Assembly: GCA_018435055.1 (NCBI GenBank)
Contig: JAHDOA010000029.1
Coordinates: 1 to 45,065, forward strand
Direction of reading: 5' to 3'
DNA from: Pelotomaculum sp.
Lineage (GTDB): Bacteria > Bacillota > Desulfotomaculia > Desulfotomaculales > Pelotomaculaceae
Length of the DNA: 45,065 nucleotides
Shown: positions 10,050 to 41,063 of the stretch, one piece after another
Layout of the letters: the number at the start of each line of letters is the position of its first letter
Numbering within the stretch: the stretch's first letter is position 1
Made by a program: the position numbers and the translations under genes
Notes under the pieces: model-generated
Database searches by the model: none
Told to the model about the DNA's origin: nothing
Seen by the model: only the letters and a program-made list of their open reading frames with translations

Positions 10050-10076
10050 ATACTTTACCCCCTTTCGCAGGACTAA

Positions 10077-12559: not shown

Positions 12560-12633
12560 ACGGGATAACACTCCTATCACAGAGTACCGCCACCAGGTTT
12601 AGCTCCTATTTACTTCTGTGCCGCATTTTTCAA

Positions 12634-14145: not shown

Positions 14146-14192
14146 TGAAAATTCCCCCTTCAATTTTATAATAATCACACGCGGTACACTCT

Positions 14193-14519
14193 TTACTGCT
14201 GGTTGGTCAGCATAAACAGCTTTCCGGTAGCCGGATCCTTATAGACAGTGCCCATCTTTTGATAAGACCTGCCCCGGCCCTCCTCACTCTCAACCAGGTC
14301 ATCGCGTATGTCCGGCTCTTCCGTAAGCTCCTGCCCGCGGTCCAGGTTGATGCGATCCCCTCTTGCAGTCAGGTCGACATTCCAGTTGAGGACCAGCGCC
14401 AGCATCAGCCCGCACGCGAACACAAGCATGGCGTCCACGATGTTAATGGCCCCTTCCAGGGGATTGTTCTCTTCTCTGTCCCTAAGCCTTCCCCTGCTCC
14501 TCAGCCCGCCTCCCAACAC
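14193..14519 (-). CDS. DUF2149-type membrane protein (ExbD-like partner)
   Basis: A GTG start at 14519 is preferred because GGAGG lies six bases upstream; a longer upstream frame would run deep into the preceding gene. The 108-residue product has an N-terminal basic region, one transmembrane segment (INIVDAMLVFACGLMLALVL, with an Asp at its start as in ExbD/MotB-like partners) and an acidic outside tail. It overlaps the ExbB-like gene by 38 bases, indicating translational coupling. DUF2149 proteins are often encoded beside MotA/TolQ/ExbB homologues in archaea and Firmicutes. The likely role is the peptidoglycan- or partner-facing half of a proton channel. Confidence 0.72.
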   Translation of the reverse strand: MLGGGLRSRGRLRDREENNPLEGAINIVDAMLVFACGLMLALVLNWNVDLTARGDRINLDRGQELTEEPDIRDDLVESEEGRGRSYQKMGTVYKDPATGKLFMLTNQQ

Positions 14520-23289: not shown

Positions 23290-26200
23290 TTAAACCCGCA
23301 ACAGGTTCCTTCTGCGTCCCCATCTCATTAGCGCCAAGGTCAAAAACACTACACACCCCAACCCGGCCAAGGGATGCATAATAAGGTAGGCAGCGGCAAC
23401 TACCGGCAGCAAACAAACCCTTACCAATACCTTTAACGTTTCATGCTGGGCTATATAGGCAGCAAGGGGCGGGGAATGTCTATAATAGAAATCAACAAAT
23501 GATGCGCCCGGTAGATTGGTAAGCAGGCACTGGTCACGGAAATTACGCAGCAACGCTACCGCAGGGGTGAACTTAGAGCCATAGGCGGCGGTAGCAATGA
23601 AGCATTCATCAATATCGCCGGAAACGGTATAAACGAAAGTCACTATCTCGCTATCCAGCATATCAGCCCTCACAGCAATGGCCTTTATGGTAGTATCTGC
23701 TTGAATCTCTATACCCTGCTCAGGATCGTACCGTTCTACGTTTTTGTTATCGTGAGTCGGCTCACTCCCGTCGCTGGTGTAAAGGATATATGCACCATCC
23801 GTGGTGGTGGTCAGTCTGACAACGGTACCCTGAGCCACCTCCCCTGGGGGCGGATCTGCAGTTGGGGCCGCAACCGCTGCTGGTCCTAGATGCTGGGTTA
23901 CCACTGCGTCGCTGTACCCGGCGGCTTTAACTACGATTGTATATGCACCGTCGGTAGTGAATGCGCCGGCGGCAATGTTCAGGTTGCCTGCCACCACTGT
24001 GTACAGGCCGGCAATGGAGGTACCGTTGACGGTTACATCTGTAATAGCTGCCTGCCAGGCTGGGTCATCGGCAAAGGTGATGTCAATTGCCTGCCCGACG
24101 GTGTTGTCTGTGTTGTCGCCAGTTAGCTCCGGTGGTGTAAGAGGAGGCGCTGTGCTTACTAGCTCAATACCTACAATATTGGAAATCGATGTTGCCCCGC
24201 TGACGACCGGTCCGACGAGCCGGAGCGGCCAGTTGCTGTCGGACTCGGGTATCAGGTTGCCGTCCAGCGTATTGGCGACAATATAGTCGTTGTTCCTGAT
24301 AATATCAGCGCTGTCGATAGTTACCGAATAACCGTCCTCCGCTGTAATCACGATCTGATACCCGGCCTCAGCCAGCTGGTTATTAAAGGCATTGTCGGAA
24401 TGCTGGTCAGCGTCGTCGACAAAGCCGGCCAGGAACCACAGGGGCATGCCTTCCCAGACCCGTCCTTTAGAATCTGTGTAGGAAGCCTTGTGGTTAGCGC
24501 CGAACTGACAGGTGAGGGCCGATTCAAAATAGGTTTTGCTCACATCATACTCAATACCACCGATATCCCGGCCATCGAGTTTCAGTGTCCAGTCACCCTG
24601 CGGTATGGAGTATATCTTGATAGTAGTAATATATTTTGCTGACAAGCCGGCACAGGAAGGATACTGGACACCATCACTGAAATAGTAGTGCCAGTATTGT
24701 TCCGGCAACGTTTCATGCATATCCCACTGGCCGTAGATATGGTCTTCCGGTGTAAAGAACAAACGCATACCATCTTTATAATTGGGCACGTATTTCCCGT
24801 CAGCCCACCAGGCCAGAATAGCGTCTCCCTGACGCTCCTGCACCGAAGGATCGGTATATATGGATGAATAAGGAAGCCTGGTCTCGTAATCGTCCTTGGC
24901 AACCAGTACGATTTCCGTCCCTGCTCCCATGCCGCCCACAAGCTCACAAAGATCTCTGATGCGGGTACCCTTCACGGCGTTTTCTATCTTGTAACCGCCG
25001 GGATATGTCTCATCAGCATCCCATACATCACCGGGGTTGTTGGTGATTCCCTCGTAGCGGTATACTGTTGTCCCGTCCCCGATCACGTCGAGTCCGCTCT
25101 CGTTCTCCATCCATTGATAATCAACCGTCATCTCTTCAAGAATGGTGACGCCGTCTTCATCGTATTTGATGATACGGACTTCAGGTACAGGCTGGATAGT
25201 TCCAAAATCCGTTATTTCAATTTCCGCGATGTTACCAACACTGGTACCGCCAAGAGTTCCATCATCCTTGGCGACACCGGCGCCGACCAGACGCAGCGGC
25301 CATGAATCACCGGTAAGCGGGTCACCGTTGCATTCATTGGCAATGATATAGTTGTTACTCCAGGTTACATCCGCGCTGGCAAAGTCTTTGGTGTATCCGT
25401 CTCCGGCTTTCACCAGAATTGTGTAACCGGCCGTCGCCTGATTGGCGTCATAATCGTGCGGCTGCCGGTCATCTACCCAACCAGTTAGTAACCAGAGAGG
25501 TATACCTGACCAGACGTTACCCTCACCGTCAGTCCATTCCACAAGGTGGCCGGAATTTGGACATGCCAGAGCGGCCTCAAACTCGGCCTGCGAGATAACA
25601 TCACTGATCCTGCCGTTTAGAGTAAGGTTCCAGCTTCCGGTCTCAGCCTCCGGTGTCTGCAGTTCAGGTATCTCTATCTTTACAATGTTGCCGACAGCAG
25701 ATCCCCCAAGAGAGCCGTCATCTTTAGCTACTCCAGCGCCTACCAGGCGCAGCGGCCATGAATCACCGGTAAGCGGGTCATCGTTGCATTCATTGGCAAT
25801 GATATAGTCGTTGCTTCCGGCTACATCCGCGCCGTTAAAGGTTCTGGAAAAATCATCTCCGGCAATCACTTTCACAGTATAGTTTGCAGCACGGTTATCA
25901 TCGAAAGTCCAGTGGCTGCTGGTTTCGATGTCATCCACCGCACCCAGGAGCACCCACAAGGGCACACCGGACCAGACGTTGCCGTCATTATCGGTCCATT
26001 CCTGGTAATGGCCCGAACCGGTGCAGGCAAGTCCTTCTTCAAACTCCTCCTGAGTGATAGTATCCCCTACATCTCCGAGCATTTCCAGGGCCCACCCTTC
26101 CTGCGGGGCAGGGAGACCTGACAGCTCAATGCGGACGATATTGCCCACCTGGGCTCCGCTTAAAACTGCCGAACCTTTCAGGTGGAGAGGCCAGCAGGGT

Positions 26201-28569
26201 TTTCCATTTACGGTCTTTTCCGGTAGCGGTTCGTTATTTAATGTGTTAGCAACAATATATCCACCGTTGCGGGCGATCGCCGCGCTGTCCAGGGTTGCCG
26301 ACCATCCGTCGCCGCTAATAACTTTAATCTGATAGTTCTGGGTGGCTAGTTCGTCGTTGAAGTTGAAGTGGTCAGGGCCGGCATCGGGGTCGTCGTCAAC
26401 CATGCCGACGAGCAGCCAGAGCGGCACTCCTCCCCATACATTACCGTCTCCGTCTGTCCAGGATACTTTATGACTGGAAGAGGCACAAGTAAGACCGTCC
26501 TCGAAGTAGGCCTTTGTGACAGACTGATTTTTTGCACCGGAAAGCTGCAGTGTCCAACCATCACCAGGGGTATCGCCCGTGGAGACAACTGTCTTCACGG
26601 CGGCGGTGGCCGCTGCCTTTACGGTATCGAGATCATCATCTTCGGCATCCGCATAATAAAACTCAACCTTATCCCCATCCGTAAGCTCAATCAGGTTCAA
26701 AGCGTCGTCGGCATTGTTGTAACCATCCTTAAAGACATCGTTGACGTAGGCATACCAGCTACTGCCTCCCTTTACATAGGGGTAGTCTTCCACATTGTCC
26801 AGAAGCAGGGCGCCCGATGACCCGTAATTCTTGTCGGTAACATCATAGGTAAAGCCCCTCGCCATCGCTGCTGCCTGAAGCGCCCCGAGCGGTGTGGTCT
26901 TGTTGACAGTGTATTTTGAATCCGAGTTGTAAGCGGTCACTTCAAAAGTCTCACTAGGACTCAGGTTAACTGTCCCGTCGTAGAGGACGTCTAACGACGG
27001 CGATGCCGTAGACATAGTCTGGGTCACTGTGGCATTGGTGTAACCGGTGGCCTTTACTACGATTGCATAGTCACCGGCAGTGGTGAATACACCGGCGTCA
27101 ATCGATATGGTACCTGCGCCAATAGTGTACTGGCCGGCTATCGATATCCCGCCCACGGTCACGTCGGTTATTGCTGCCCGCCAAGCCGCATCATCTGTAA
27201 AGGTGATCTCCACCGCCTGGCCGACTTCGTTACCGGTGGTATCGGCGGTAAGGGACGGCGGAGTCAGCAGCGCTGGGCTTGCCGTAACATAGTCAGTCTT
27301 TGTCTCATCGTCGCTGCCGGCGTCGTTGGTTACAGTCAGCTTGACACTGTAGGTGCCGGCCTCGGTGTACTCATATGACGGGTTCTGCTCGGTGGAGTCC
27401 ACCGTGCCGTCGTTATCAAAGTCCCAGGCCCATGAGGTCGGGCTGTTTGTCGACTGGTCGCTAAACTGTACAGTTAACGGTGCTGCGCCGCTGGTTACGT
27501 CAGCGGTGAAGGCGGCTACCGGGGCTACCGGCGCCGGGCTTACCGTAATATAGCCAATCTTTGCCTCATCGTCGCTGCCGGTGGCGTTGGTCACCGTAAG
27601 CTTGACGCTGTAAGTGCCGGCCTCAGTGTACTGATATGACGGGTTCTGGTCGGTACTGTCCACCGTGCCGTCGTTATCGAAGTCCCAAGCATAAGTCAGA
27701 GGCGCTGTGCCTGTCGACTGGTCGGTGAAGCTGACCATCAGCGGCGCCGTGCCGCTGGTCACGTCAGCGGTGAAGGCCGCCACAGGAGCTGACGACGCTG
27801 GCTCATTACTGTATATTGTCAGCTCAGAAACATACTGCACCGAAAGTCCGGTTGTGGTCGGATATTTTTCAGTTCCTTGCATATAATAATACCAGTATTC
27901 GGAATCCGCAGCCTCGTGCCAATCCCAGTTGCCGAAGACGTGGTAATCACCTGAGGGCAAACCCGCGATACTTGTAGGGCCTTCTTTGTACGTCGCTTCG
28001 GCAAACCAGACCAAACGCATGCCGTCGCTATAGCCGCTGTCGGGGTACTTGCCGTCCTTGTACCAGCAGACTACCATCGGGCCTTCACGGTCTGTGTATT
28101 CGTATACGTTCTTATAATCAAACGTTTTGGCTAAACCGTCGGTAGCTTTTATTCTTAACGTGTCGCCAGGAACCATCCCCCCCACCAGGTTGCAGAGGTC
28201 TTTCACATTGGTCCCCTTGAGAGCGCCCATATCCTTGGTATCCCAGTTGGTGTCTTCCGCCTCGTTCCAGCGAAGCATCTCCTGGGTCTCTTCATCAGGG
28301 TCGTCCACAAATACCGGCCCCTGGTGATAATAACGCGTGTCCCCGTCTCCCGTTACAAGTATGGAGGTTCCATCATTAAGCTCGCCGGCTTCTAACTCCT
28401 GATAGGTCACAGTTCTCTCTTCAAGAACAGTCGTTTTGTCGGAGGCGAGCTTTTTGATGGTCAGGCTTGTAGTAGCAGCGCTTGCTTCCGGCGGGGCATA
28501 TACGGCGGATAGCATTACCAGCAGTGTGACCATTAGCATTCCCAACCCATACCTTAGCAGTCTGTTCAT
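23290..28569 (-). CDS. Giant surface protein with repeated sulfite-oxidase-like modules and CFI-box membrane anchor
   Basis: A 1759-residue exported protein. ATG 28569 is preferred to the ATG at 28575 because GAGAGGAG abuts the latter but lies six bases from the former. Domains in order: signal; a module beginning SLTIKKLASD; two PKD domains (WDFDNDGTVDSTDQNPSY and a near copy); a DUF1533-like domain; a DUF4430/transcobalamin-like domain (SSWYAYVNDVFKDGYNNADD); three modules with WTDGDGNVW-G(V/I)PLWLL; another module like the first; one more PLWFL module; a second DUF1533-like domain; a chitobiase-like domain; and a C-terminal CFIATAAYGS segment with transmembrane helix and basic tail. It follows leader RNA copy 4. 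Probably a membrane-anchored multi-site binding protein. Confidence 0.85.
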   Translation of the reverse strand: MNRLLRYGLGMLMVTLLVMLSAVYAPPEASAATTSLTIKKLASDKTTVLEERTVTYQELEAGELNDGTSILVTGDGDTRYYHQGPVFVDDPDEETQEMLRWNEAEDTNWDTKDMGALKGTNVKDLCNLVGGMVPGDTLRIKATDGLAKTFDYKNVYEYTDREGPMVVCWYKDGKYPDSGYSDGMRLVWFAEATYKEGPTSIAGLPSGDYHVFGNWDWHEAADSEYWYYYMQGTEKYPTTTGLSVQYVSELTIYSNEPASSAPVAAFTADVTSGTAPLMVSFTDQSTGTAPLTYAWDFDNDGTVDSTDQNPSYQYTEAGTYSVKLTVTNATGSDDEAKIGYITVSPAPVAPVAAFTADVTSGAAPLTVQFSDQSTNSPTSWAWDFDNDGTVDSTEQNPSYEYTEAGTYSVKLTVTNDAGSDDETKTDYVTASPALLTPPSLTADTTGNEVGQAVEITFTDDAAWRAAITDVTVGGISIAGQYTIGAGTISIDAGVFTTAGDYAIVVKATGYTNATVTQTMSTASPSLDVLYDGTVNLSPSETFEVTAYNSDSKYTVNKTTPLGALQAAAMARGFTYDVTDKNYGSSGALLLDNVEDYPYVKGGSSWYAYVNDVFKDGYNNADDALNLIELTDGDKVEFYYADAEDDDLDTVKAAATAAVKTVVSTGDTPGDGWTLQLSGAKNQSVTKAYFEDGLTCASSSHKVSWTDGDGNVWGGVPLWLLVGMVDDDPDAGPDHFNFNDELATQNYQIKVISGDGWSATLDSAAIARNGGYIVANTLNNEPLPEKTVNGKPCWPLHLKGSAVLSGAQVGNIVRIELSGLPAPQEGWALEMLGDVGDTITQEEFEEGLACTGSGHYQEWTDNDGNVWSGVPLWVLLGAVDDIETSSHWTFDDNRAANYTVKVIAGDDFSRTFNGADVAGSNDYIIANECNDDPLTGDSWPLRLVGAGVAKDDGSLGGSAVGNIVKIEIPELQTPEAETGSWNLTLNGRISDVISQAEFEAALACPNSGHLVEWTDGEGNVWSGIPLWLLTGWVDDRQPHDYDANQATAGYTILVKAGDGYTKDFASADVTWSNNYIIANECNGDPLTGDSWPLRLVGAGVAKDDGTLGGTSVGNIAEIEITDFGTIQPVPEVRIIKYDEDGVTILEEMTVDYQWMENESGLDVIGDGTTVYRYEGITNNPGDVWDADETYPGGYKIENAVKGTRIRDLCELVGGMGAGTEIVLVAKDDYETRLPYSSIYTDPSVQERQGDAILAWWADGKYVPNYKDGMRLFFTPEDHIYGQWDMHETLPEQYWHYYFSDGVQYPSCAGLSAKYITTIKIYSIPQGDWTLKLDGRDIGGIEYDVSKTYFESALTCQFGANHKASYTDSKGRVWEGMPLWFLAGFVDDADQHSDNAFNNQLAEAGYQIVITAEDGYSVTIDSADIIRNNDYIVANTLDGNLIPESDSNWPLRLVGPVVSGATSISNIVGIELVSTAPPLTPPELTGDNTDNTVGQAIDITFADDPAWQAAITDVTVNGTSIAGLYTVVAGNLNIAAGAFTTDGAYTIVVKAAGYSDAVVTQHLGPAAVAAPTADPPPGEVAQGTVVRLTTTTDGAYILYTSDGSEPTHDNKNVERYDPEQGIEIQADTTIKAIAVRADMLDSEIVTFVYTVSGDIDECFIATAAYGSKFTPAVALLRNFRDQCLLTNLPGASFVDFYYRHSPPLAAYIAQHETLKVLVRVCLLPVVAAAYLIMHPLAGLGCVVFLTLALMRWGRRRNLLRV
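25292..25352. repeat. 61-base internal direct repeat, copy a
   Basis: Identical to 25748-25808 except for one base that I can see. It codes for the end of consecutive PLWLL-type modules in the giant protein (IIANEC...SWPLRLVG). Such near-identity between otherwise diverged modules points to recent gene conversion. Confidence 0.85.
25748..25808. repeat. 61-base internal direct repeat, copy b
   Basis: Partner of 25292-25352, in the preceding module of the same giant protein. Confidence 0.85.
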
Positions 28570-28629
28570 ATGCATCTCCTCTCATTTAATAAATATTTTA
28601 TATTCATTGTACTTACCACAGACAGCTTT

Positions 28630-28855: not shown

Positions 28856-28920
28856 CACATGTGGAATAAAAAAAGCTAAACCTTTAAAAAGGTCAGCCCG
28901 AATGCCACAATATTAGAAAA

Positions 28921-29025
28921 TTGCCAATTTTCTTTCCGCACCCGGGAAGTGCAGCCGTTTCCCGCTACACTCTGGCGGCCCAAGATCCCTAGCCGGCGGC
29001 CTTAGGTTCGAGGGCTCGAAAATTG
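28921..29025 (-). ncRNA. Structured leader RNA, copy 4 (riboswitch candidate)
   Basis: The GAAA-capped stem is 28962-28971 with 28948-28957 (AGTGTAGCGG/CGGCTGCACT, nine of ten paired). CCTAAG (29001-29006) and TAGGG (28987-28991) form the receptor-like pair, and the 5' end carries TTTTCGAGCC. The 3' conserved box is GGTGCGGAAAG. Stem sequence differs strongly from copies 1-3, yet the fold is preserved. It precedes the giant surface-protein gene with a terminator in between. Confidence 0.65.
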
Positions 29026-29146
29026 TCAAAACTTACATTATGATTTATTTTGATATAATTCTACGTCAGCATTAAATAGTCCTTCAAAAATTGGAAACAG
29101 AAGAAATATTTTTGATAAATAAGGATGCTAACAATGGTATTCAAAT

Positions 29147-29839
29147 TCAGTGGGCCATCCGATCTACTAAAGGCAGAGAATCTAAAATATAGCCTTCCTG
29201 TCGCTTCCTGAACCCGGCGATATTTTTCAGTGATTTTTTTACTTCTTCTTTAAAAACCCTTTTGTCGACGGTATTATCTAGCTTACAATAGCAATCAATA
29301 AATTTATTGATCACATCAAATTTTTCCCTGGTAAAGGGAGGGTTATTGCTAAGGATGTAGGCACAGCACTCGGCGATATCCTGCTCGGGCCGACCAAATA
29401 TTTCTGCTTCGAAATCCAGGGCATAGAAATCGTCCTGATAAAAAATAAAATTTCTCAGATTGGCGTCGTCTTTTAACATAACCGCGCCGTTTGCCTGCAT
29501 GTTGGCCTTGTGAAACCCGTAAAACCACTCCGCCAGTCTGGCAATCCACCTGGGTGAATAGGATGATACAGCATCAATAATATGTGTGAGAAGGGTGCCT
29601 TCGATATATTGCATATAGAGCACGTTTTCATGCACCCCATATACGGAAGGGACGTTTACGTACAAGCTGCTCAGGCGTCTGAGCAGGCGGTATTCTCTCA
29701 GCGCCGCGTAGGCATCCGGATATTCCTTTACTACCACCGGAAGAATACGTCTGTCCCACACCATCTCATTTAAAGTAACCCGGTTGCGCCTGCTGTGGAA
29801 GTGTTTTATTTCCGGGGCGCCAATCCAGATAGATTTCAT
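29147..29839 (-). CDS. Small-molecule or protein kinase-like phosphotransferase
   Basis: A 230-residue protein with a minimal kinase fold of the RIO/Kdo-kinase/aminoglycoside-phosphotransferase type. VVVKEYPDAYAALREYRLL suggests the ATP lysine and its glutamate partner, KDDANLRNF (about 123-131) resembles the catalytic loop with Asp and the metal-binding Asn, and ALDFEAEIFG (about 139-148) the DFG-like Asp. Start ATG 29839 has AAAGGAAGG upstream. It is the last gene after the ECF transporter genes, about 50 bases downstream of the T component. A natural guess is phosphorylation of the imported vitamin-like compound, trapping it inside, as thiamine kinase does; the substrate cannot be read from sequence. 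Confidence 0.65.
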   Translation of the reverse strand: MKSIWIGAPEIKHFHSRRNRVTLNEMVWDRRILPVVVKEYPDAYAALREYRLLRRLSSLYVNVPSVYGVHENVLYMQYIEGTLLTHIIDAVSSYSPRWIARLAEWFYGFHKANMQANGAVMLKDDANLRNFIFYQDDFYALDFEAEIFGRPEQDIAECCAYILSNNPPFTREKFDVINKFIDCYCKLDNTVDKRVFKEEVKKSLKNIAGFRKRQEGYILDSLPLVDRMAH

Positions 29840-29891: not shown

Positions 29892-30701
29892 TTAAAAACA
29901 ATGCGTGAGAAAAATCCCTCCCGCCAGCAACAGGATTGTGCCGGTAGCCAGAATCAGCCATTCCTTTTTATCAACAGACTGCTTAAAGAGATAAGACCTG
30001 CCGGAATACAGCCCAAAAGCCCGGCTTTCCATAGAAACAGCCAGGTAATCCACTTTATTAAGAGCGCAGATAACCAGCGGGGTTAACAGGTATTTTACCG
30101 CCCTGAGAATTTTGCCGGGCGACATCCCTTCCAGGTCGATTCCTTTGGCCATCTGGGCGTTCCTGATAATGGTGAGTTCCCGGGTAAAGACCGGTATAAA
30201 ACGGAGCGAGGTAATGAGCGCGAAGCCGTAGCGGTAAGGCAGTCCGGCCTGCATTAAAGCATAAACAAGCTTGTTGGGGTCGGTGGTACTTACAAATAGG
30301 TAGCTGGAAGCAATAATATTTATAAACCTCAGCATCATCACCAGGCCTGCCACTGCGCCGGCGGACCAGATCCGCAGGGTGATACTGCTGAAAACAGCAT
30401 ATTCCAGTAGCAGGTAACCCTGCCGGACCGAGATGACCTGGATAAGCATGATCAGCAGACCGAACAGCAGTATTACCCTCAACTTGCGCAGAAAGAAACC
30501 AGGGCCCAACCCGGAAATTCCGTAGAACACCAGTAGAACAAAAAACAACGCGAGAGCTGTAACAACATGCGAAAATACGATAACGCTGGTGCTGTATATG
30601 ATTAGCAGCAGCAGTTTCGGCAGCGGGTGCAGCCGGTGCACGGCAGTGTCCCCCGGCATATAGGCCAAGCCGGGAAAAAGATTCTTAAGACCCCTGGCCA
30701 T
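29892..30701 (-). CDS. ECF transporter transmembrane (T) component, YkoC/CbiQ-like
   Basis: About 269 residues from the ATG at 30701; an earlier ATG at 30761 is possible but would overlap the ATPase gene by 77 bases. Several hydrophobic segments are followed by the two conserved coupling motifs of EcfT: RNAQMAKGID and SMESRAFG in the cytoplasmic region. EcfT links the two ATPase domains to the substrate-binding S component. It is translationally coupled to the upstream ATPase gene. Together with the YkoE-like S component, this is a dedicated (group I) ECF importer. Confidence 0.85.
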   Translation of the reverse strand: MARGLKNLFPGLAYMPGDTAVHRLHPLPKLLLLIIYSTSVIVFSHVVTALALFFVLLVFYGISGLGPGFFLRKLRVILLFGLLIMLIQVISVRQGYLLLEYAVFSSITLRIWSAGAVAGLVMMLRFINIIASSYLFVSTTDPNKLVYALMQAGLPYRYGFALITSLRFIPVFTRELTIIRNAQMAKGIDLEGMSPGKILRAVKYLLTPLVICALNKVDYLAVSMESRAFGLYSGRSYLFKQSVDKKEWLILATGTILLLAGGIFLTHCF

Positions 30702-32271
30702 AGCATAAATCCCCAATGACATTGCTGCCGGGCAGGTAGTCCTTGAAACCAAGCTCTTCAAGCAGCTTGAAACCTTCTTCTACCGGACTGTCAAGCAGCA
30801 GCTTCCCGTTTTCTAAAAATAATATCCTGTTACAAAAATCCCGCACAAAATCAGGCTCATGACAGACAATCACGGCCATCCCGCCCGCACTGCGGTGTTT
30901 TAACACCGCCTGCCAGAATATGTCCGCCCGCCGGTAGTCCTGTCCAATTAATGGTTCGTCCAGCAGCAGCATTTCCGGGTTATATCCCAGCACAGACACC
31001 AGTGTCAGCCTTTTTTTCTCTCCCAAACTCAGGCTGAAAGGAATCCCCTCTTTGTACTGCAGCAAATCAAATTCCAATAGAAGTGAATTTATTCCGGCAT
31101 TCATCGCGCTTTCGCCTCCAAACAGCATAATTGAAGGCAGCGCTGCCTCCCGGTAAACAGTATTTTCAAATATCTGGTGGTTGGGATTCTGAAAGACCAT
31201 GCCCATGTGCCTGGCCCGCCGTGATACCTTTTCAGCGGTAATATCCCTGCTGCGGTAAACAATCCTGCCCCGCTCCAGCTTGTTGATCCCCAGGAGCGAA
31301 AGCAGCAGGGTGGTCTTGCCGGAACCGTTGCAGCCCATAACAGCCGTGATCTGTCCCGGATGGATATCGAAATTGATATCTTCAAGGATCCTCTTGCCAC
31401 CGCAGCTTACAGTCAAATCTCTGACACTCAGGACCGGATTGGCCTGGCTGTGCCGCTCTTCAGTTGTGGATTGGTTTGAGCTTTCCTCTTCTCCAGTTTT
31501 ATAGCCAAAGTCAAAATAATACTTTTGCCGGCTGCAGTAGTTTTTATAAACATGGCCCGGCTCCCCGTCACAAATTATGCGGCCCTTGTCCATAACCAGC
31601 AGGCGGTTGGAAATAGGAATGAGCTGCCTGAGCCGATGCTCTATTATGATGACCGCGGTGTCAGCCTCCATCTTTTTTATCACTTGCAGCACCTCGGTTG
31701 TGCCGCACGGGTCAAGGTTGGCGGTCGGCTCGTCCAGAATGATCAGCGCAGGTTTCATAGCCAGTACCGAGGCAATGGCAATGCGCTGTTTTTCACCACC
31801 TGAGAGAGAATAGACCTCTCGGTCCCGCAGGTGAAGGGAACCGACCGCCCCCAAGGCCCATTCCACCCTGTCTTTTATCTCTTCCCGGCTGAGGCAGAGG
31901 TTCTCGGGGCCAAAAGCCACCTCGTCAACTACTTTCAGGGTGCACAGCTGGGCTTCCGGGTCCTGCTGAACCAGGCCGATAGCTCCGGCGAGCTTTTGGG
32001 GAGGGCACTGCCGGCTGTCCATACCGTTGACGATGACTGAGCCGCTCATTTCACCCCCCACATGGTGCGGGATAAACCCGGCCAGGCAAAGTGCCAAGGT
32101 TGATTTTCCGCAACCGCTTCCGCCGGTTATGCTGATAAATTCACCTTTATCCACCCGCAGGTTGATATCGCTTAAAGCTGGTTCCCTGCTTCCCTCATAT
32201 TTAAAAGTGACCCCGCCTACACAAACAACCGGTAAGTCTATTTCAGTCACGCCCTGTCGCTGGTTATTCAA
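30685..32271 (-). CDS. ECF transporter fused double ATPase, YkoD-like
   Basis: A 528-residue protein with two complete ABC domains: Walker A GGSGCGKST (about 35) and GCNGSGKTT (about 317); signatures LSGGEKQR and LSLGEKKR; Walker B ALIILDEPTANLD and MLLLDEPLIGQD. The fused arrangement is that of YkoD, which powers uptake of thiamine or its pyrimidine moiety; cobalt-type relatives exist. A TTG start at 32271 overlaps the end of the S-component gene by eight bases, so translation is probably coupled. Confidence 0.88.
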   Translation of the reverse strand: MNNQRQGVTEIDLPVVCVGGVTFKYEGSREPALSDINLRVDKGEFISITGGSGCGKSTLALCLAGFIPHHVGGEMSGSVIVNGMDSRQCPPQKLAGAIGLVQQDPEAQLCTLKVVDEVAFGPENLCLSREEIKDRVEWALGAVGSLHLRDREVYSLSGGEKQRIAIASVLAMKPALIILDEPTANLDPCGTTEVLQVIKKMEADTAVIIIEHRLRQLIPISNRLLVMDKGRIICDGEPGHVYKNYCSRQKYYFDFGYKTGEEESSNQSTTEERHSQANPVLSVRDLTVSCGGKRILEDINFDIHPGQITAVMGCNGSGKTTLLLSLLGINKLERGRIVYRSRDITAEKVSRRARHMGMVFQNPNHQIFENTVYREAALPSIMLFGGESAMNAGINSLLLEFDLLQYKEGIPFSLSLGEKKRLTLVSVLGYNPEMLLLDEPLIGQDYRRADIFWQAVLKHRSAGGMAVIVCHEPDFVRDFCNRILFLENGKLLLDSPVEEGFKLLEELGFKDYLPGSNVIGDLCYGQGS

Positions 32272-33325
32272 TAACTAACGCGTTAACCTGCCTGACCCAG
32301 CAGCTCCCATCATAGTTCGCCGCCACCAGTCGCAGCATACTGTCTTCTTCCGTCAAAATAAACCTGTGATCGGCAAGCACCTTTTCCAGTGCAAATTCTA
32401 TCGTGTACCCATCGTTGCCTGACACTTTCAATACCGTGCTGCCCGCCCTTGGCGCCGCCTCCACAAGTATCGCCGCGACCGGGACCCCGGTGTATTCTTT
32501 TTCATCCACATGCGTGTACTGGCCTTTCAACTCCGCCCTGATAGTGATTTCCTGCTCGCTGAAATCAGCCAGACGAAAATTTAAGGTGCGTTCGACGGCT
32601 CCTTGCACCGAACACTCCTGTCCTGACCATGGTGGTATATATACCTGTGTAAAATAATAAACAGCACCGCCGGCGAAGAGCAGAAATATTACCCCGGTCG
32701 CCATAATTTTAAACTTGCTGTTTTTGGCCGGACCGGGTAAATTGCTATTCTGACGATTTGACTGAAATACCCTGGCCTGGGTTATGATATTCAAAACATG
32801 GCAGCCGAAGAAACCGGCAAAGACCAGGCCGGAAACAAAGGCGAGAAAAGCAATAAAAACAATATACCCCCAGGCCACGCCTGAGAAATACAGGGATTGG
32901 AAAACCAGGACGTTGCTAGCGGCAGCAAGGCCCCCGGCCAGAGACAGGAATGCCAGCGAGTAACGCCGGAAAATTATCAATATCAAATCTACTATGACTC
33001 CCTGTACCAGGGAGACTACGATAATAGCGATCCCATGAGTACCGCCTGTAAGAAACTCGATAGAGCCTTTTATGAGACCCGCCAGGGATGCGGCGCCTGT
33101 CTTTTTTGCCAGACCGGCAGCAAGTATAATCCAGAAGACATGCAGGCCCGATAAAAACTGACCCGCTCCAAAAGGAACCCCCAGCATAGTGTTAAAAAGG
33201 TTTGCCAGATAACCTATATAGGTGCTCATTACACCGCCAATCCCGCTTAAAACAGCTATGGCCAGAAGGTTCCGGTTCGACATGTATGGTTTCTTTTCTT
33301 TTATCGCCAGGTCATATTCCTTCAT
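32264..33325 (-). CDS. YkoE-like ECF S component fused to an extracytoplasmic sulfite-oxidase-like module
   Basis: A 353-residue protein. Residues about 15-190 form a six-helix membrane domain with GAASLAGLIKGSIEFLTGG followed by VSLVQGVIVDL, the pattern of YkoE (ABC_cobalt family) S components. An additional helix (about 210-230) leads to a C-terminal domain (about 240-353) with EYTGVPVAAILVEAAP and VSGNDGYTIEFALEKVL, the same module as in the nearby surface proteins. The fusion places that module on the outer face directly beside the substrate entry site. It follows leader RNA copy 3, and starts ATG 33325 with AGAGGTAG. Substrate unknown; thiamine, a metal or a cofactor precursor are candidates. 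Confidence 0.78.
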   Translation of the reverse strand: MKEYDLAIKEKKPYMSNRNLLAIAVLSGIGGVMSTYIGYLANLFNTMLGVPFGAGQFLSGLHVFWIILAAGLAKKTGAASLAGLIKGSIEFLTGGTHGIAIIVVSLVQGVIVDLILIIFRRYSLAFLSLAGGLAAASNVLVFQSLYFSGVAWGYIVFIAFLAFVSGLVFAGFFGCHVLNIITQARVFQSNRQNSNLPGPAKNSKFKIMATGVIFLLFAGGAVYYFTQVYIPPWSGQECSVQGAVERTLNFRLADFSEQEITIRAELKGQYTHVDEKEYTGVPVAAILVEAAPRAGSTVLKVSGNDGYTIEFALEKVLADHRFILTEEDSMLRLVAANYDGSCWVRQVNALVIE

Positions 33326-33373
33326 TTTGACTACCTCTTAGTTGTTTCACGTAATAATGCCTTTAAAGACAAT

Positions 33374-33408
33374 ACCGGACATACTGCGAAAAACACAGCC
33401 AGCCCGGT
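33374..33408 (-). terminator. Terminator-like hairpin after leader RNA copy 3
   Basis: Minus-strand ACCGGGC/GTCCGGT stem of 7 bp with a long loop. The loop contains TTTTCGCAGT (33383-33392), which can pair with the ATTGCGAAAA box of the leader. The following bases (ATTGTCTTT) are a weak U run, so termination here is less certain than in the other copies. Confidence 0.5.
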
Positions 33409-33420
33409 ACGAAAATATGG

Positions 33421-33713: not shown

Positions 33714-34475
33714 TCACTTAGTATTAACTCCGTCTATTGATTCAGGGCAAAACCTGGGAATGCCCAGCAAAGCGGCAGCGCCTGAACCGGTTGTACCAAA
33801 GACAACAAGCGGTTTTCCGCTCTGTATCAGCGGATCTGCAGTATCATTGCACATGGTGCTGCCAGTGGCAAAAATGACATCACAGGCCGCTAAATGCTTA
33901 TCCAGGCCAATAGCGCCGTTTTCAATAAGCACTCCATTTTTCTCCTGGCCTATATTAGCCGGGTCAAGGTCAAGGACAGTCAGGTGAAAAGCCTGGTGCA
34001 GCGCTTCGGCCAGAGCTGGCTGATAACCGATCATCAGGATCCGGGGTTTGCCGTAGTTCTTTTGAAAATAATTGACTGCCTGGCGTGCGCACAATTCCGG
34101 CCCTTCATTGCGGCAGTGAATTGTGTTCACAACTTTTCCGGTGTGACAGACTGCCGCGTTAAGGGTGGCCGTGTAAACAGCCCGCTGATAATCATTTGTC
34201 AACGGCAGCGCCAGTACGTCTTCCAGTGTTCCGGCAAAATCACCCAGCGAGCCGGTAAAAGCCTGTCCCCTGCAGCCCATCATCTCTGCTTGCAGCAGGC
34301 GTTCTTTACCTTTTAACAGTACATAGTCTTTGCGCTTGGTGGAGCCGATGCTGCCTTCCGGGCTTAATGGTTTCGCCGTTACTTTAACTTCTGCTTGTTT
34401 GAGCTTGTATTCATCTACCAGCCGGGCAAACTCCTTTTGCAGACGGTGGAAAAATACATTTATTTTTTCGGTCAT
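33714..34475 (-). CDS. DUF4213/DUF364 putative metal-chelation protein
   Basis: A 253-residue cytoplasmic protein. The N-terminal part (about 10-95) matches DUF4213 and the C-terminal part (about 110-250) matches DUF364, including RILMIGYQPALAEAL, VIFATGSTMCNDTADPL and VVFGTTGSGAAALLGIPRF. These domains are called putative heavy-metal chelation and tend to sit beside molybdate, tungstate or iron transport genes. It lies about 100 bases downstream of modC in the same direction, so it is probably the last gene of the molybdate operon. Start ATG 34475 has AAGGGGGG. The reaction is unknown. Confidence 0.8.
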   Translation of the reverse strand: MTEKINVFFHRLQKEFARLVDEYKLKQAEVKVTAKPLSPEGSIGSTKRKDYVLLKGKERLLQAEMMGCRGQAFTGSLGDFAGTLEDVLALPLTNDYQRAVYTATLNAAVCHTGKVVNTIHCRNEGPELCARQAVNYFQKNYGKPRILMIGYQPALAEALHQAFHLTVLDLDPANIGQEKNGVLIENGAIGLDKHLAACDVIFATGSTMCNDTADPLIQSGKPLVVFGTTGSGAAALLGIPRFCPESIDGVNTK

Positions 34476-34573: not shown

Positions 34574-35242
34574 TTATGCCGAAACCACGTTTAGAGAATG
34601 TTTCCTTACCTGCCCATTTTCAATGGTAACAATTGCATCTCCCAAAAAACGGGCGTCTTCTTCATCATGTGTTACCAGAACAAATGGTATCTGCCATTGC
34701 TGGTGCAGTCTCTTCAGCTCTTGCCGCAAGCCGGTTTTCGTTTTTCTGTCAAGGGCGCTGAAAGGCTCATCCAACAAAAGCAGCTTCGGCTGGACAATCA
34801 GTGCCCTGGCCAGGGCTACCCGTTGCTTCTCCCCGCCGGAAAGCTGACTGGGGTAACGGTCTATCAAGTGCCCGACCCCAAAGGAATCCAACAGTTCCAC
34901 CGGATCCAACGCGGAACCTGCCTGCCTGTATCTTTTGCTTTTCAGTCCGTAAAAAACATTCTGTCTTACTGTCATATGTGGAAAAAGGGCGCAGTTCTGA
35001 AACAGGTAGCCAATGTCTCTGGATTGCGGAGGCTTGTTAATCTTGCCGGCAGAAGAATACAAGGTCTGATTATTTAATTTGATGTAACCATCATCCGGTT
35101 TAAAAAGACCGGCTAAAAGGGTCAGGGTGGTGGTCTTCCCGCAGCCGGACGGACCCAGGAGAACAAGGATTTGATTATCCACCTGCAATTCTACCTTCAG
35201 GGTGAAATGCCACAATTTTTTGGTCAGGCTGGCTTCTAACAT
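34574..35242 (-). CDS. modC: Molybdate/tungstate ABC transporter ATPase
   Basis: A 222-residue ABC ATPase with Walker A GPSGCGKTT (about 31-39), Q-loop GYLFQNCALFPH, signature LSGGEKQR, Walker B LLLLDEPFSALD and the H-loop VTHDEEDA. It is shorter than E. coli ModC because the C-terminal molybdate-binding regulatory domain is missing. It follows modB by 18 bases. Start ATG 35242 with AAAGGTGA. Confidence 0.85.
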   Translation of the reverse strand: MLEASLTKKLWHFTLKVELQVDNQILVLLGPSGCGKTTTLTLLAGLFKPDDGYIKLNNQTLYSSAGKINKPPQSRDIGYLFQNCALFPHMTVRQNVFYGLKSKRYRQAGSALDPVELLDSFGVGHLIDRYPSQLSGGEKQRVALARALIVQPKLLLLDEPFSALDRKTKTGLRQELKRLHQQWQIPFVLVTHDEEDARFLGDAIVTIENGQVRKHSLNVVSA

Positions 35243-35260
35243 ATTGTCACCTTTAATATC

Positions 35261-35935
35261 TTAATAGTTCTGCTTTTTAGCCCAGCGGTTTACCCAGAAT
35301 ATAACACAGAAGCTAAATACCGTGATAATGACGACCAGGGTCCTGGCTAGAACGTCCTTACCTGATTCCACCGCAAAATATATAGCAGTTGGAATGGTCT
35401 GGGTCAGGCCCGGGATATTGCCGGCCACCATTAAAGTGGCGCCAAATTCGCCCAGGGCGCGGGCAAAGGTCAGTACCAACCCGGCCAGAATGCCCGGCCA
35501 GGCCAGCGGTAGTGTAACCGTAAAAAATATCCTCACTTCACTTGCCCCCAGGGTCCTGGCCGCTTTTTCAAAATCCAGGTCCACGCTCATAAAAGCTGCT
35601 TTAGCGCTCTGGTACATCAGCGGGAAAGCCACCACGGTAGCCGCAATAACAGCCGCATACCAGGTAAACACCAATGTAACTCCCATATCAGCCAGAATTC
35701 TGCCGAATAAACCATTCTTACCGATCAGCATCAGCAAGCCATAACCGACAACTGAAGGCGGCAGCACCATAGGCAGGGTTATCGCCGCCTCCAGAAAATC
35801 TTTACCATAAAACTCCTTGCGGGCCATGAACCGGGTCAGAGGCACGCCCAGACAGGTAACAATAATTGTTGCAATTATGGCTACCCGGACAGAAAGGATG
35901 ACCGGGTGCCAGTCCATCTCACTAAAAAACACCAT
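35261..35935 (-). CDS. modB: Molybdate/tungstate ABC transporter permease
   Basis: A 224-residue permease with five to six helices and the ABC coupling motif near residues 145-165 (ARALGEFGATLMVAGNIPG), characteristic of ModB. RTLGASEVRIFFTVTLPLAWPGI is the conserved inner-membrane loop contacting the ATPase. It starts five bases after the modA stop and ends just before modC, so the three genes form one operon. Confidence 0.9.
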   Translation of the reverse strand: MVFFSEMDWHPVILSVRVAIIATIIVTCLGVPLTRFMARKEFYGKDFLEAAITLPMVLPPSVVGYGLLMLIGKNGLFGRILADMGVTLVFTWYAAVIAATVVAFPLMYQSAKAAFMSVDLDFEKAARTLGASEVRIFFTVTLPLAWPGILAGLVLTFARALGEFGATLMVAGNIPGLTQTIPTAIYFAVESGKDVLARTLVVIITVFSFCVIFWVNRWAKKQNY

Positions 35936-35940
35936 GGGAG

Positions 35941-36723
35941 TTATTTAAGGACTTTAAAGCCGTATTTTTCAAATATCTTAACAGCGTCGTCACTCTTCAA
36001 AAATGCCTCAAACGCTTCCGCCTCTTTCTGGTATTTGGTGTTCTTGATCACAGCCACGGGGTATACTATAGGCGCACTGGATCCGGCGGGCGCAGCGGCT
36101 ATAATTTTAATGTTGCTGCTGACGGCGGCGTCAGTGCGGTAAACCAGTCCCACATCCACATTGCCGGTTTCAACATAGGTGAGCACCTGGCGCACGTCTT
36201 TAGCCAGGACCATTTTGGGCTGAAGCTGCTCCCACAGATTAAGGGTAGTCAAGGTTTCTTTGGCGTACTTGCCGGCAGGTACTGTTTCAGGTGTGCCGAT
36301 ACTGATCTTGCCGACACTTGCGTCGGCCATGTCTTCAAATTTCGCAAGCTTACTATCCTTACCTGCAATCAGCACCAGTTCGTTGCCCAGCAAGTCCTGG
36401 CGTGATTCTTCAATTATCAGTCCTTTTTGGGACAGGGCATCCATCTGTGACTTGCCGGCTGATATGAACAGGTCTGCCGGGGCGCCCTCCTCAATTTGCT
36501 TTTGCAGGGTTCCTGATGCTGCTAGATTCAAGGTTAGTATTACGCCGGCGTTTTCTGTTTCATAAAGAGTCTTTAATTCTCCCGCTGCGTCCTGCAAACT
36601 TGCTGCCGCTGAAATGTTCAGGTTAACTGGTTCGGTTTTCGCCGGCTCTTTTGTACCGCCGCAGCCGGCGGCAAATGCCATAACAAATAACGCCAAAACT
36701 AAAAATGTTAATGTTTTTTTCAT
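35941..36723 (-). CDS. modA: Molybdate/tungstate-binding lipoprotein
   Basis: A 260-residue type II binding protein of the ModA family. The signal MKKTLTFLVLALFVMAFAAG ends at C21, the lipidated residue. Ligand-site segments include ISAAASLQDA (about 38-47), LAASGTLQKQIEEGAPADLF and VGLVYRTDAAV. It captures oxyanions outside the membrane for ModBC. GGAGAGGAT precedes ATG 36723. A strong promoter lies 270 bases upstream with a 10-bp inverted repeat farther up. Molybdate and tungstate cannot be distinguished by eye. Confidence 0.88.
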   Translation of the reverse strand: MKKTLTFLVLALFVMAFAAGCGGTKEPAKTEPVNLNISAAASLQDAAGELKTLYETENAGVILTLNLAASGTLQKQIEEGAPADLFISAGKSQMDALSQKGLIIEESRQDLLGNELVLIAGKDSKLAKFEDMADASVGKISIGTPETVPAGKYAKETLTTLNLWEQLQPKMVLAKDVRQVLTYVETGNVDVGLVYRTDAAVSSNIKIIAAAPAGSSAPIVYPVAVIKNTKYQKEAEAFEAFLKSDDAVKIFEKYGFKVLK

Positions 36724-37157: not shown

Positions 37158-37961
37158 TTATTGCTTCTGTATAGAAACTTCAAAAACATCTTCATCTGCC
37201 AGACTTAAAAAACACCTCATGTCTATTCTCCGGCTGGCCGTAATACTTAGCGTTTCGTTCCCGCAACGCCAGACAGTGCGGCCCGGTAAATCTGCCGGCA
37301 GGTATGCAAAACGGGGCGGATTCGCCAGCCTGGCCCTGGACAGGCCCTGGATGGTATCGGCTAAACACGGCGAACCCTCAACCATGACCTGGAGATCCGG
37401 GAAGTTGAGCTTGCCAAACCTCTCACTGGCAATAACCGCCATACGCACGGCCATAAGAAGAGCGGGACACTCTTCCTGATGATGGTTGACAGCTTGTCGA
37501 AAAAAGATATTTTGCAACATTTCCCGTTTATAGGGCTGAATATTTGGTGTGCGCGGGGAAAACACTATGTCATTTTCGAAATATGGCTTAATATCTATGA
37601 CAGGAGTACCGTTGACCGCGTCCATCCCCGAAACATAAAGAGACATTCCTTCGGTTTTGTGCAATTGCACCAGGCTCAGCGCAACAGGGTTGGGGCGAAC
37701 TGGGGCCCGCAGCGCGAAAACCCCGTAATCGGGTGAGTTGGGATTCATACGGTACGGCGATACAACAAGGCGGTCACGCCTGGCCAGGTGAAACCAGGTT
37801 AATAACCAGAGGTGCGAATTTTTTTCAATCTGCTGAAGGGCGTCCTCATATTTTGGGTAAACCTCTATCACTGCTCTTTGTTGTGGATCCTGCACTGTCC
37901 CCGCATCTAAATAATCAGATCTTACCACCCCAATAGGTCTGATGACAATTTCTTCAGGCAT
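37158..37961 (-). CDS. TrmO/TsaA-like domain fused to an FmdE-like domain
   Basis: The start ATG 37961 is chosen because AAGGAGTG lies seven bases upstream; earlier in-frame codons lack such a site. The 267-residue product has an N-terminal UPF0066 (TrmO/YaeB) domain (IRPIGVVRSDY, LWLLTWFHLARRD, APVRPNPVALSLVQL, DIKPYFENDI), which in E. coli methylates t6A37 of tRNA using SAM. The C-terminal part (about 145-255) resembles FmdE, a formylmethanofuran dehydrogenase-associated protein (HHQEECPALLMAVRMA, VEGSPCLADTIQG). Location beside modABC suggests a molybdenum/tungsten connection. It is transcribed away from the regulator at 38284. Function of the fusion is unknown. Confidence 0.7.
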   Translation of the reverse strand: MPEEIVIRPIGVVRSDYLDAGTVQDPQQRAVIEVYPKYEDALQQIEKNSHLWLLTWFHLARRDRLVVSPYRMNPNSPDYGVFALRAPVRPNPVALSLVQLHKTEGMSLYVSGMDAVNGTPVIDIKPYFENDIVFSPRTPNIQPYKREMLQNIFFRQAVNHHQEECPALLMAVRMAVIASERFGKLNFPDLQVMVEGSPCLADTIQGLSRARLANPPRFAYLPADLPGRTVWRCGNETLSITASRRIDMRCFLSLADEDVFEVSIQKQ

Positions 37962-38196
37962 AAATATACACTCCTTTACGACAGTCAAACATTTGCACAA
38001 TTAAACTTGCGCTGATGATTCCTTTATTAGTTGCGGTATTGAAATATAATAGCTTATAAAGCCCCCGTCCGTTGATATTTTATTTATGTGGCTTTATATT
38101 ATGTTGTTTGATGCAAGTTGTTTAACCGGCATAATATGGCGGGTGGATAAATAAATACTACTCTGTTGGCTGCCTACATACAAAAAATTATTTTGC

Positions 38197-38254: not shown

Positions 38255-38283
38255 AGACATCAGAATATTTGAGGGGGGAAAAC

Positions 38284-39252
38284 ATGAAGGACGGATCTTC
38301 TTTAACTCCCGAAGAAGTTGCGGCGGTACTAAAAATTGCCAAGAATACTGTTTATGAATTAATAAAACGGGGGGAACTGACAGCCTACAGGATAGGGCGC
38401 AAGCTCAGGGTCGACCCGCAGGATGTGGAAAATTACAAGAAAAAAGGCAAAAAAATAGAAATGGCGTCGACAAACATGCCGGCAATGAATACATTTCCAG
38501 CACAACAGATCAAAACACCGCTGGAAGCAGATCAGTTTTCCTCATCCCCCAAAATGGTAATCTGCGGCCAGGACGTTTTACTGGACATCCTGGCCCGCCA
38601 CCTGGAACGCCACCCCAACGGCACCTATACCCTCAGGCACCACGTGGGGAGCTTTAACGGCCTGCTTGCTCTTTACCAGGAAAAGGCGCACCTGGTTAGC
38701 GTCCATCTCTGGGACGGGGACAATGATGTTTACAATCTTACTTATGTCCGGTATATACTTTGCGGGACCCCTGCCGTGTTAATCCACCTGGCCTGCCGGA
38801 TGCAGGGTTTTTATGTAGCCAAAAACAACCCCAAGTCAATTATGACCTGGCAGGATCTAATCAGGCCGGATGTTTTGTTCATCAACCGGGAGAAAGGATG
38901 CGGCACAAGAGTGCTGCTGGATGAAAAGATGCGGCGGGAGGGAATAGACAGGAAACAAATAAACGGCTATGAGAGGGAAGAAAATTCGCACCTTGCTGTA
39001 GCAAGCGCCGTTTCAAGGGGGGAAGCTGACGTAGCGCTGGGAAACGAAAAGGCCTCGCTTCAGGTACGCGGGATAGAATTTGTGCCACTGCAGAAGGAAC
39101 GTTATGAACTGGTTATATTAAAGAATGACATCGAACTGCCCCCATTTCAGGCAGTTATTGAAATTCTTCAGTCACAAGAATTTAAAAATGAACTAGAGGG
39201 CGTGGGTGATTATGATTTAACTGAACTGGGCAATATCGTGGCTTACGTATGA
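38284..39252 (+). CDS. Excisionase-type HTH regulator with PBP-like oxyanion-sensing domain
   Basis: A 322-residue protein read from ATG 38284 after GAGGGGGG (an upstream TTG lies before that site). Residues about 5-55 form a MerR/excisionase-type helix-turn-helix (LTPEEVAAVLKIAKNTVYELIKRGEL). Residues about 95-310 form a PBP-like domain related to ModA-type binding proteins (DVLLDILARHLE, GSFNGLLALYQ, FINREKGCGTRVLLDE, AVSRGEADVALG). Such proteins are typically cytoplasmic sensors of molybdate or tungstate. It is the only clear plus-strand gene of the window, sits between the mod operon and moeA, and shares candidate operator half-sites with modA. Confidence 0.8.
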   Translation: MKDGSSLTPEEVAAVLKIAKNTVYELIKRGELTAYRIGRKLRVDPQDVENYKKKGKKIEMASTNMPAMNTFPAQQIKTPLEADQFSSSPKMVICGQDVLLDILARHLERHPNGTYTLRHHVGSFNGLLALYQEKAHLVSVHLWDGDNDVYNLTYVRYILCGTPAVLIHLACRMQGFYVAKNNPKSIMTWQDLIRPDVLFINREKGCGTRVLLDEKMRREGIDRKQINGYEREENSHLAVASAVSRGEADVALGNEKASLQVRGIEFVPLQKERYELVILKNDIELPPFQAVIEILQSQEFKNELEGVGDYDLTELGNIVAYV

Positions 39253-39820: not shown

Positions 39821-41035
39821 TTATCTATTAGAGTCAAGAACTATAACCGACACCTCGGCACCTTTTTCCAACGGGGGCTGGCCCGCAGGAAGGTCGATCA
39901 GCGCATTGCCGTTGTTAAGAAGGCCGCGCAGCATACTGGATTTCTGCCCGGACAGAATAGATACCATTAAACCTTCCTGACAGGATTCCAGATTTGCCTG
40001 TATAAAGCGGCGGGGGCCTCCTCTTTTCGGAAAAGCACTGGCGCATACGGCGGTAACCCGCTCTGGAGCAAAACTTTGGCCTTGCATAACGCGTAAAACG
40101 GGAGCTGCCAGCAGGTGATAGCCTGCCGCGCAAGCCGCCGGATTGCCTGAAAGCGATATGATCAGTTTGCCGTCATAGACTGCCGCGCCGCTGTGGCTGC
40201 CAGGCTTAATCTGTATTTCCCAGAAAAGAAGCTTAGCGCCGGTTTGCCTCACAGCCCAAAGGGCCTGGTCGCATTCCCCTTTGGCGGTCCCGCCTGTTGT
40301 AAGTACAATATCAGCCTGGCGGAGCAGCTTTTCCAGCATATTTTTAATTTTCGACAGGTCACCTTCACCGGCAAGTTCTACACCTGTAACCTGTGCCCCG
40401 TTACGCATGGCAAGGGTAGCGAGAAAAGGTCCGTTGCTGTCCCTGATCTGGCCGGGCAAGGGCTTTGCCTGGCAGGGAACGATACCCTGTCCCAATCCTA
40501 AAACAGCTACCCGGGGACGTCTGAACACTGCAACTTCACTCATCCCAAACGCCGCCAATACACCAATTGCTCCCGGGTTTAAGGCTGTACCCCGCCGTAC
40601 CAGCAAATCACCGGCCTTAAAATCCTCTCCCTGGGGCCGTATATTTTCGCCAGGCGGCGTGTCTCCCGCAAATTTAAGGAGATCCCCCTCCAGTCGGGTT
40701 ATCTCTTGCGGGATCACTGAACCAGTTCCATCCGGCACCGGACCGCCTGTTACAACTCCGGCGGCCTGACCGGGACTTAGTTCGAAACCCGGCATTACTC
40801 CGGGTTTTAATATTTCTATTATCCTGCAACTATGGTTTTTTATCTCCTTATCTGCAGACACAGCGAAGCCGTCCACCGCAGACTTGTTGCAAGGCGGTAG
40901 GTCATGGGGGGCATGCACATCCCGGTAAATAAAACGGCCTAAAGCGCTCAGCAAAGGAACGGACTCAGCAGGCAAATGAACGATTCGATTATAAATCAGC
41001 TCCTGTGCCTCTTCCAGCTTTACGTTCTCCAACAC
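39821..41035 (-). CDS. moeA: Molybdopterin molybdenumtransferase
   Basis: About 404 residues; GTG 41035 is preferred because GGTGGAGG lies 10 bases upstream, while an earlier GTG (41053) has only a weak site. The family inserts molybdate (or tungstate) into adenylated molybdopterin. Seen are PPCNKSAVDGFAV (the usual SAMDGYA region), TGGPVPDGTGSVIPQE, TTGGTAKGECDQALW (MoCF signature) and SLSGNPAACAAGY, with a C-terminal beta domain. The motifs differ somewhat from E. coli MoeA, so metal selectivity may differ. It lies between the MoeA-like gene at 41064 and the unknown gene at 39359. Confidence 0.85.
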   Translation of the reverse strand: MLENVKLEEAQELIYNRIVHLPAESVPLLSALGRFIYRDVHAPHDLPPCNKSAVDGFAVSADKEIKNHSCRIIEILKPGVMPGFELSPGQAAGVVTGGPVPDGTGSVIPQEITRLEGDLLKFAGDTPPGENIRPQGEDFKAGDLLVRRGTALNPGAIGVLAAFGMSEVAVFRRPRVAVLGLGQGIVPCQAKPLPGQIRDSNGPFLATLAMRNGAQVTGVELAGEGDLSKIKNMLEKLLRQADIVLTTGGTAKGECDQALWAVRQTGAKLLFWEIQIKPGSHSGAAVYDGKLIISLSGNPAACAAGYHLLAAPVLRVMQGQSFAPERVTAVCASAFPKRGGPRRFIQANLESCQEGLMVSILSGQKSSMLRGLLNNGNALIDLPAGQPPLEKGAEVSVIVLDSNR

Positions 41036-41063
41036 CTGGTTACTTACCTCCACCTAACTTCTC

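Follow-up and report, generated by a model that had tools for sequence, protein, structure and literature searches.

Why would an ECF S component of the YkoE type carry a domain outside the cell at its C terminus, and what would such a transporter take up? The question is raised by a gene at 32264-33325 in a 45,065-nt window (the whole stretch of DNA analyzed here) of Pelotomaculum sp. contig JAHDOA010000029.1; all window coordinates are on the minus strand unless marked (+). The 353-residue ORF matches PF09819 (ABC_cobalt, YkoE family) at residues 19 to 135 (E = 1.2e-17) and, weakly, PF00174 (Oxidored_molyb) at residues 239 to 321 (17.1 bits against a cut-off of 24 bits). A profile of 17 sequences of fused homologues (profile A1) was compared with the PDB and matched both YkoE (5edl, E = 7e-15) and SoxC (2xts, E = 3.9e-5), and both halves of the fusion are therefore firm. 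The AlphaFold model, with a pLDDT of 77 overall and about 77 to 94 over most of the C-terminal domain, contains six helices, a seventh helix (residues 203 to 228; 32642-32719), and a beta domain (residues 237 to 352). In VIA-align comparisons of this model, residues 14 to 201 aligned to YkoE 5edl with a Z score of 23.4 and to ThiT with a Z score of about 13, the membrane S-component part being assigned to residues 14 to 188 (32762-33286). Residues 230 to 353 (32267-32638) aligned to SUOX-fold proteins with Z scores of 13 to 16 (2blf, 15.7; 2xts, 15.2; 7kos, 13.4), and a profile of this domain (profile A2) matched 2xts (E = 1.6e-10) and PruR 7kom (E = 9.6e-5). In the fusion protein and five relatives, three or four lysines or arginines stand ahead of helix 7 and none behind it; since this helix follows six others, the charge pattern places the C-terminal domain outside. 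An earlier note on this DNA had described a YkoE-like S component with a C-terminal outside domain that acts as a receiver at the transporter mouth. Pfam, profile, model, and helix-7 charges all agree with that architecture, and a SUOX-fold domain outside supports the receiver role, with receipt of a ligand as an inferred step. Going beyond the note, the domain is of the SUOX (molybdopterin/pterin-binding) fold, and we annotate it as a putative receptor.

A search for other extended YkoE proteins, as the note had suggested, yielded 60 distinct fusions, bacterial and archaeal, that have common invariant residues in both halves, and a fusion artefact or assembly error was rejected on the strength of these sequences from two domains of life. 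The invariant S-pocket residues are Q56, H62, W65, K86, E90, H97, and Q143 (one fragment lacks the first three), and those of the SUOX domain are G268, Y278, G280, D305, G306, G340, and W343. At aligned position 267, which corresponds to the Mo-ligating cysteine, the fused sequences have I, K, V, Q, or R but never cysteine, and no catalysis would be expected of the tethered domain. In YkoE, the pyrimidine is contacted by E77 and Q95 (PMC5037267). Of the thiamine contacts Y46, W49, E77, Q95, and D131, only E77 and Q95 are kept in the fused family, as E90 (60/60 sequences) and as Q108 (Q or E); W49 is replaced by His62 (59/59), Y46 by Ser/Ala59, and D131 aligns near the invariant Gln143.

The gene heads an operon with a complete transporter. 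Its stop overlaps the start of a fused double ECF ATPase, EcfAA' (30685-32271), followed by the ECF T component (29892-30761; PF02361, E = 1.1e-24) and, as the last gene of the unit, by a RIO/APH-like kinase of the small-molecule type (29147-29839; PF01163, E = 4e-6), which is kept beside the fused S gene in Asgard loci. The S component, T component, and two ATPase units are thus encoded together by adjoining and overlapping genes, as in group I ECF systems. The leader of the operon contains a Moco/Tuco riboswitch aptamer (RF01055, 33413-33535, 46.5 bits), and a terminator-like hairpin lies between aptamer and start codon (33372-33410, positioned from the printed fold; -26.1 kcal/mol, z = -3.8), which is likely the expression platform. 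A second Moco/Tuco riboswitch (28913-29033, 67.8 bits) is located upstream of a gene for a 1761-residue surface protein and of the surface island that it opens; both aptamers exceed the RF01055 gathering score of 36 bits. The P3 stem is absent in the alignments of both riboswitches, and the P3-less form has been tied to the tungsten cofactor by Regulski et al. (PMC2408646). Elsewhere in the window, a tandem pair of Moco riboswitches (1816-1935 and 1966-2085) precedes a further surface gene of the S-layer-homology kind (3-1682), which runs off the window.

The surface island comprises the 1761-residue protein (23290-28575), with several SUOX-type domains, PKD, a Shr-like HID, and a CFI-box C terminus; a secreted purple-acid-phosphatase-like metallophosphoesterase (21421-22992; PF00149, E = 5e-18); an S-layer homology protein (20304-21287); an S-layer protein with SUOX-type domains (16834-20169; PF00174, E = 2e-8); a membrane-anchored surface protein with one such domain (15144-16820; E = 1.2e-5); an S-layer protein with another (12634-14178; E = 6.5e-7); and a lipoprotein-like SUOX-type surface protein (11678-12580), recognized by a family HMM. 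PF00174 also matches the 1761-residue protein. The note had held that the tethered domain is of the same type as those of the surface proteins. Besides sharing PF00174, the two aligned to each other in a profile-profile comparison (96.2%, E = 2.7e-9) and not to an unrelated domain. A profile of the window's surface domains alone gave no convincing PDB match, its photosystem Z matches being due to chance, and the SUOX link of the surface domains consequently rests on Pfam and the profile-profile comparison. A MotA/TolQ/ExbB-like proton channel (14482-15147) and its conserved partner DUF2149 (14193-14615) are also encoded within the island; this pair recurs beside S components at five other loci (L055, L062, L064, L066, and L067), which suggests an energized surface machine.

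On the other side of the operon, the genes encode or include a DUF364 protein (33714-34475, putative heavy-metal chelation), the molybdate/tungstate ABC importer genes modC, modB, and modA (34574-36723; modA by PF13531, modC and modB by sequence and homologues), a TrmO-FmdE protein (37158-38000), a regulator with HTH and PBP-like, oxyanion-type parts (38269-39252 [+]), moeA along with another MoeA-like, molybdopterin-binding gene (39821-42086; by homology to PF03453-positive proteins, the second by sequence only), and a formate-dehydrogenase-like molybdopterin oxidoreductase (42098-43705; PF00384, E = 1e-52). The stretch at 2294-11336 probably has a catabolic role and no relation to the transporter; read by sequence only, this cluster encodes a ribose-type ABC importer, an aminotransferase, a zinc alcohol dehydrogenase, and two proteins resembling histidinol dehydrogenase. 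The same genome carries a second S component of the YkoE type (L048 and L049, G000:C38), which is unfused and adjoins SUOX-type surface proteins, a TrmO-FmdE gene, and a cysteine-desulfurase-like gene.

A scan of genome contigs located the fusion in Pelotomaculum, Syntrophomonadaceae, other Bacillota MAGs, Hermodarchaeota, and Thorarchaeota. Of 398 genomes from the phylum to which the window belongs, about two dozen carry it, as do 46 of 195 Asgard genomes. A further SUOX-domain gene is nearby at 35 of 38 fused loci. In Bacillota and many Asgards, this partner is a lipoprotein that joins metallophosphoesterase and SUOX parts, and in Hermodarchaeota it is a tandem SUOX protein; the usual Asgard order is RIO kinase, phosphoesterase-SUOX, S-SUOX, EcfAA', and EcfT. 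Many Bacillota and Asgards instead have a split form, in which a one-helix SUOX protein adjoins an unfused S component (L065, L128, L140-L144, L168-L185), frequently with MobB, RIO kinase, and MoeA. The functional link between surface island and import that the note had drawn is supported by the SUOX surface or lipoprotein genes adjoining the fused loci, by the Moco riboswitches that in the window precede the S gene and also the gene for the large surface protein, and by the split form.

The neighbors of these relatives place the system in molybdenum/tungsten cofactor metabolism, a point that the note had not made. MobB is present at 14 of 31 SUOX-linked unfused loci; other neighbors are moaA/C/E-moeA (L128), AOR (L131 and L142), molybdopterin oxidoreductase (L132), and tup, mod, MOT1, DUF364, and FDH genes, with MobB, AOR, molybdopterin oxidoreductase, TrmO/FmdE, and MoaA confirmed by Pfam. 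Genes for Mo, W, or pterin functions accompany 23 of the 31 unfused loci with a SUOX partner compared to 3 of the 13 without one (Fisher p = 0.003). One such island (L065, 6278-14785) lies under a Moco riboswitch and encodes ApbE-like, FMN_bind+SUOX, NosR-like Fer4_5+FMN_bind, MobB, and RIO kinase proteins next to the S component, hinting at a flavin redox branch. Among Bacillota, the SUOX-linked S loci scanned had a Moco riboswitch in 16 of 23 cases and a TPP riboswitch in none; the seven loci without a Moco riboswitch include some on short contigs. YkoE-type S loci without SUOX had a TPP riboswitch in four of eight cases (L171, L174, L181, and L186). Since it is the SUOX-less YkoE-type loci that have TPP riboswitches, riboswitch type seems to separate a thiamine from a cofactor subfamily. 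At the loci with downstream genes listed, a Moco riboswitch is followed by SUOX, S, or Tup genes, sometimes past one or two uncharacterized ORFs. At L063, one of the eight loci without SUOX, a Moco riboswitch (14480-14599, minus strand) occurs with an S component that has no recognized SUOX partner, and uncharacterized genes lie between them.

The Asgard archaea allow the transporter to be set against the cofactor pathway itself. MoaA, MoaC, MoaE, and MoeA were found in 79, 80, 79, and 77 of the 195 Asgard genomes, respectively, and 80 genomes had at least three of the four, our definition of pathway presence. The pathway was detected in none of the 46 fusion genomes versus 80 of the 149 others (Fisher p = 5e-13, a test that ignores shared ancestry, the genomes not being independent); one fusion genome has a single weak MoaA. 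Genes for tungstopterin AORs (AFOR_N) are nonetheless present in 192 of the 195 genomes, including all 46 with the fusion. Incompleteness as the cause of the missing pathway was rejected, since two fusion genomes (G619 and G626) are essentially single contigs and AFOR was recovered in all 46. A binding protein of ModA/TupA size was encoded by 24 of 40 genomes with the pathway and by 0 of 40 tested fusion genomes. In 40 Asgard genomes, neither the pathway nor a profile A1 match was found; nearly all of these encode AORs, seven have a PF09819 match, and some have split systems (L143, L144, and L146). In two pathway-keeping genomes (L128, G642:C1; L129, G536:C8), an unfused ECF system adjoins moaA, moaC, moaE, and moeA. 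The simplest reading is that fusion-carrying Asgards obtain the finished metal-pterin cofactor, or a close relative of it, from outside.

From the fold and topology, the operon and its riboswitch, the fused and split forms, the neighboring cofactor genes, and the Asgard complementarity with Moa/MoeA, all of them established here, we propose with a probability of roughly 0.7 that the gene encodes the S component that gives a dedicated group I ECF importer its specificity for the Mo/W pyranopterin cofactor; from the same evidence we infer the substrate, the inward direction, and the working steps. The substrate would be MPT with or without bound metal, or a dephosphorylated derivative. By analogy with PruR, the SUOX domain would bind the pterin, and the S component may take the same pterin by means of the Glu and Gln with which YkoE holds the aminopyrimidine of thiamine. 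Surface SUOX-domain proteins and the tethered domain would capture the pterin outside, without catalysis, and neighboring secreted metallophosphoesterases would trim phosphate or nucleotide. The S component would then accept the aminopyrimidine end via the conserved Glu/Gln and dock on EcfT-EcfAA' for ATP-driven uptake, after which the RIO/APH-type kinase may re-phosphorylate the pterin inside. When cofactor is plentiful, the P3-less Moco/Tuco riboswitch and its terminator would shut the operon. In Bacillota, the importer would serve only salvage, since MoaC is kept in 10 of 11 tested genomes that carry the system.

Several other substrates and one other direction can be envisaged. The system might import molybdate, tungstate, or a chelate of either, with the SUOX domain a mere scaffold; modABC, tupA, MOT1, and DUF364 genes do adjoin, and a Moco/Tuco riboswitch would control metal uptake as well (PMC2408646). 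However, the same bacterial loci often already have oxyanion importers, the Glu/Gln that bind aminopyrimidine persist in the S pocket, and SUOX is a pterin-binding fold. Imported metal alone could not become cofactor in the fusion Asgards, which lack MoaA, MoaC, MoaE, and MoeA; this loss disfavors oxyanion-only import, which we regard as unlikely. Import of another pterin, such as a neopterin- or monapterin-like signal or a folate precursor, would fit PruR, a minimal SUOX relative that binds monapterin and neopterin but probably not the larger Moco (PMC13259868), yet the Moco riboswitch, the MobB, MoeA, Moa, and AOR neighbors, and the complementarity with Moa/MoeA point to the metal cofactor and make this quite improbable.

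A slightly more improbable arrangement has the ECF module working outward, delivering a pterin or flavin cofactor to SUOX surface proteins that act as redox enzymes or electron carriers. Such surface proteins are numerous, three of the window's surface domains keep a cysteine, and FMN_bind and NosR-like genes lie in the L065 island, but ECF transporters are known as importers, the Asgard hosts are apparently unable to make a cofactor to export, and the tethered domain has no cysteine ligand. That the protein simply imports thiamine or HMP like YkoE, its outside domain being decorative, has PF09819 membership, the YkoE fold, and the conserved Glu and Gln in its favor. Trp49, Tyr46, and Asp131 are nevertheless substituted, and the SUOX-linked loci scanned have Moco and no TPP riboswitches, the latter occurring in SUOX-less relatives; pocket residues and riboswitch type thus led us to reject thiamine as the substrate, the least probable of the readings considered.

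The Mo/W cofactor, being fragile, is generally regarded as made by each prokaryote for itself, and we know of no importer for it. A full-text search of the open-access literature found no earlier report of such an importer or of a Moco/ECF link. We lean, by a narrow balance, toward this being the first importer dedicated to the intact Mo/W pyranopterin cofactor, with many Asgards being cofactor auxotrophs that are fed by neighbors and run tungsten enzymes. If confirmed, the proposal would add a new substrate class for ECF transporters, give a purpose to the many surface proteins with SUOX domains in anaerobic Bacillota, and make cofactor cross-feeding testable. It would also explain how Asgards, the closest relatives of eukaryotes, could keep tungsten aldehyde oxidoreductases despite loss of the whole pathway.

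Compared to known systems, the proposed cofactor importer most resembles YkoEDC, the thiamine ECF transporter of Bacillus subtilis, with which it shares a PF09819 S component of the same six-helix fold, T and A genes of its own in one operon, and the pyrimidine-binding Glu and Gln. It differs in its additional helix and SUOX domain, in the substituted Trp49, Tyr46, and Asp131, and in having a Moco rather than a TPP riboswitch and cofactor genes as neighbors. ModABC, TupABC, and WtpABC serve the same metabolism, often adjoin, and are under the same riboswitch class, but they are classical ABC importers that take up oxyanions with the help of a substrate-binding protein. The SorA (2blf) and SoxC (2xts) sulfite dehydrogenases share the molybdopterin-domain fold and sequence profile, whereas the tethered domain lacks the cysteine ligand and a dimerization domain and is far shorter. 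Closer in form is PruR, a periplasmic pterin-binding protein (7kos, 7rkb, and 7kp2) that lacks the Mo-ligating cysteine and binds metal-free pterins (PMC13259868); both are minimal, extracytoplasmic SUOX folds without this ligand. Structural-alignment identity is only 13 to 18%, and where PruR has Trp at the cysteine position, the fusion domain is variable. The fused family has an invariant Tyr278 and Trp343, which may or may not correspond to Tyr104 and Trp160, the pterin contacts of PruR. PruR is encoded upstream of a DcpA/DTB-type regulator, whereas the partner of the fusion domain is the ECF transporter to which it is tethered.
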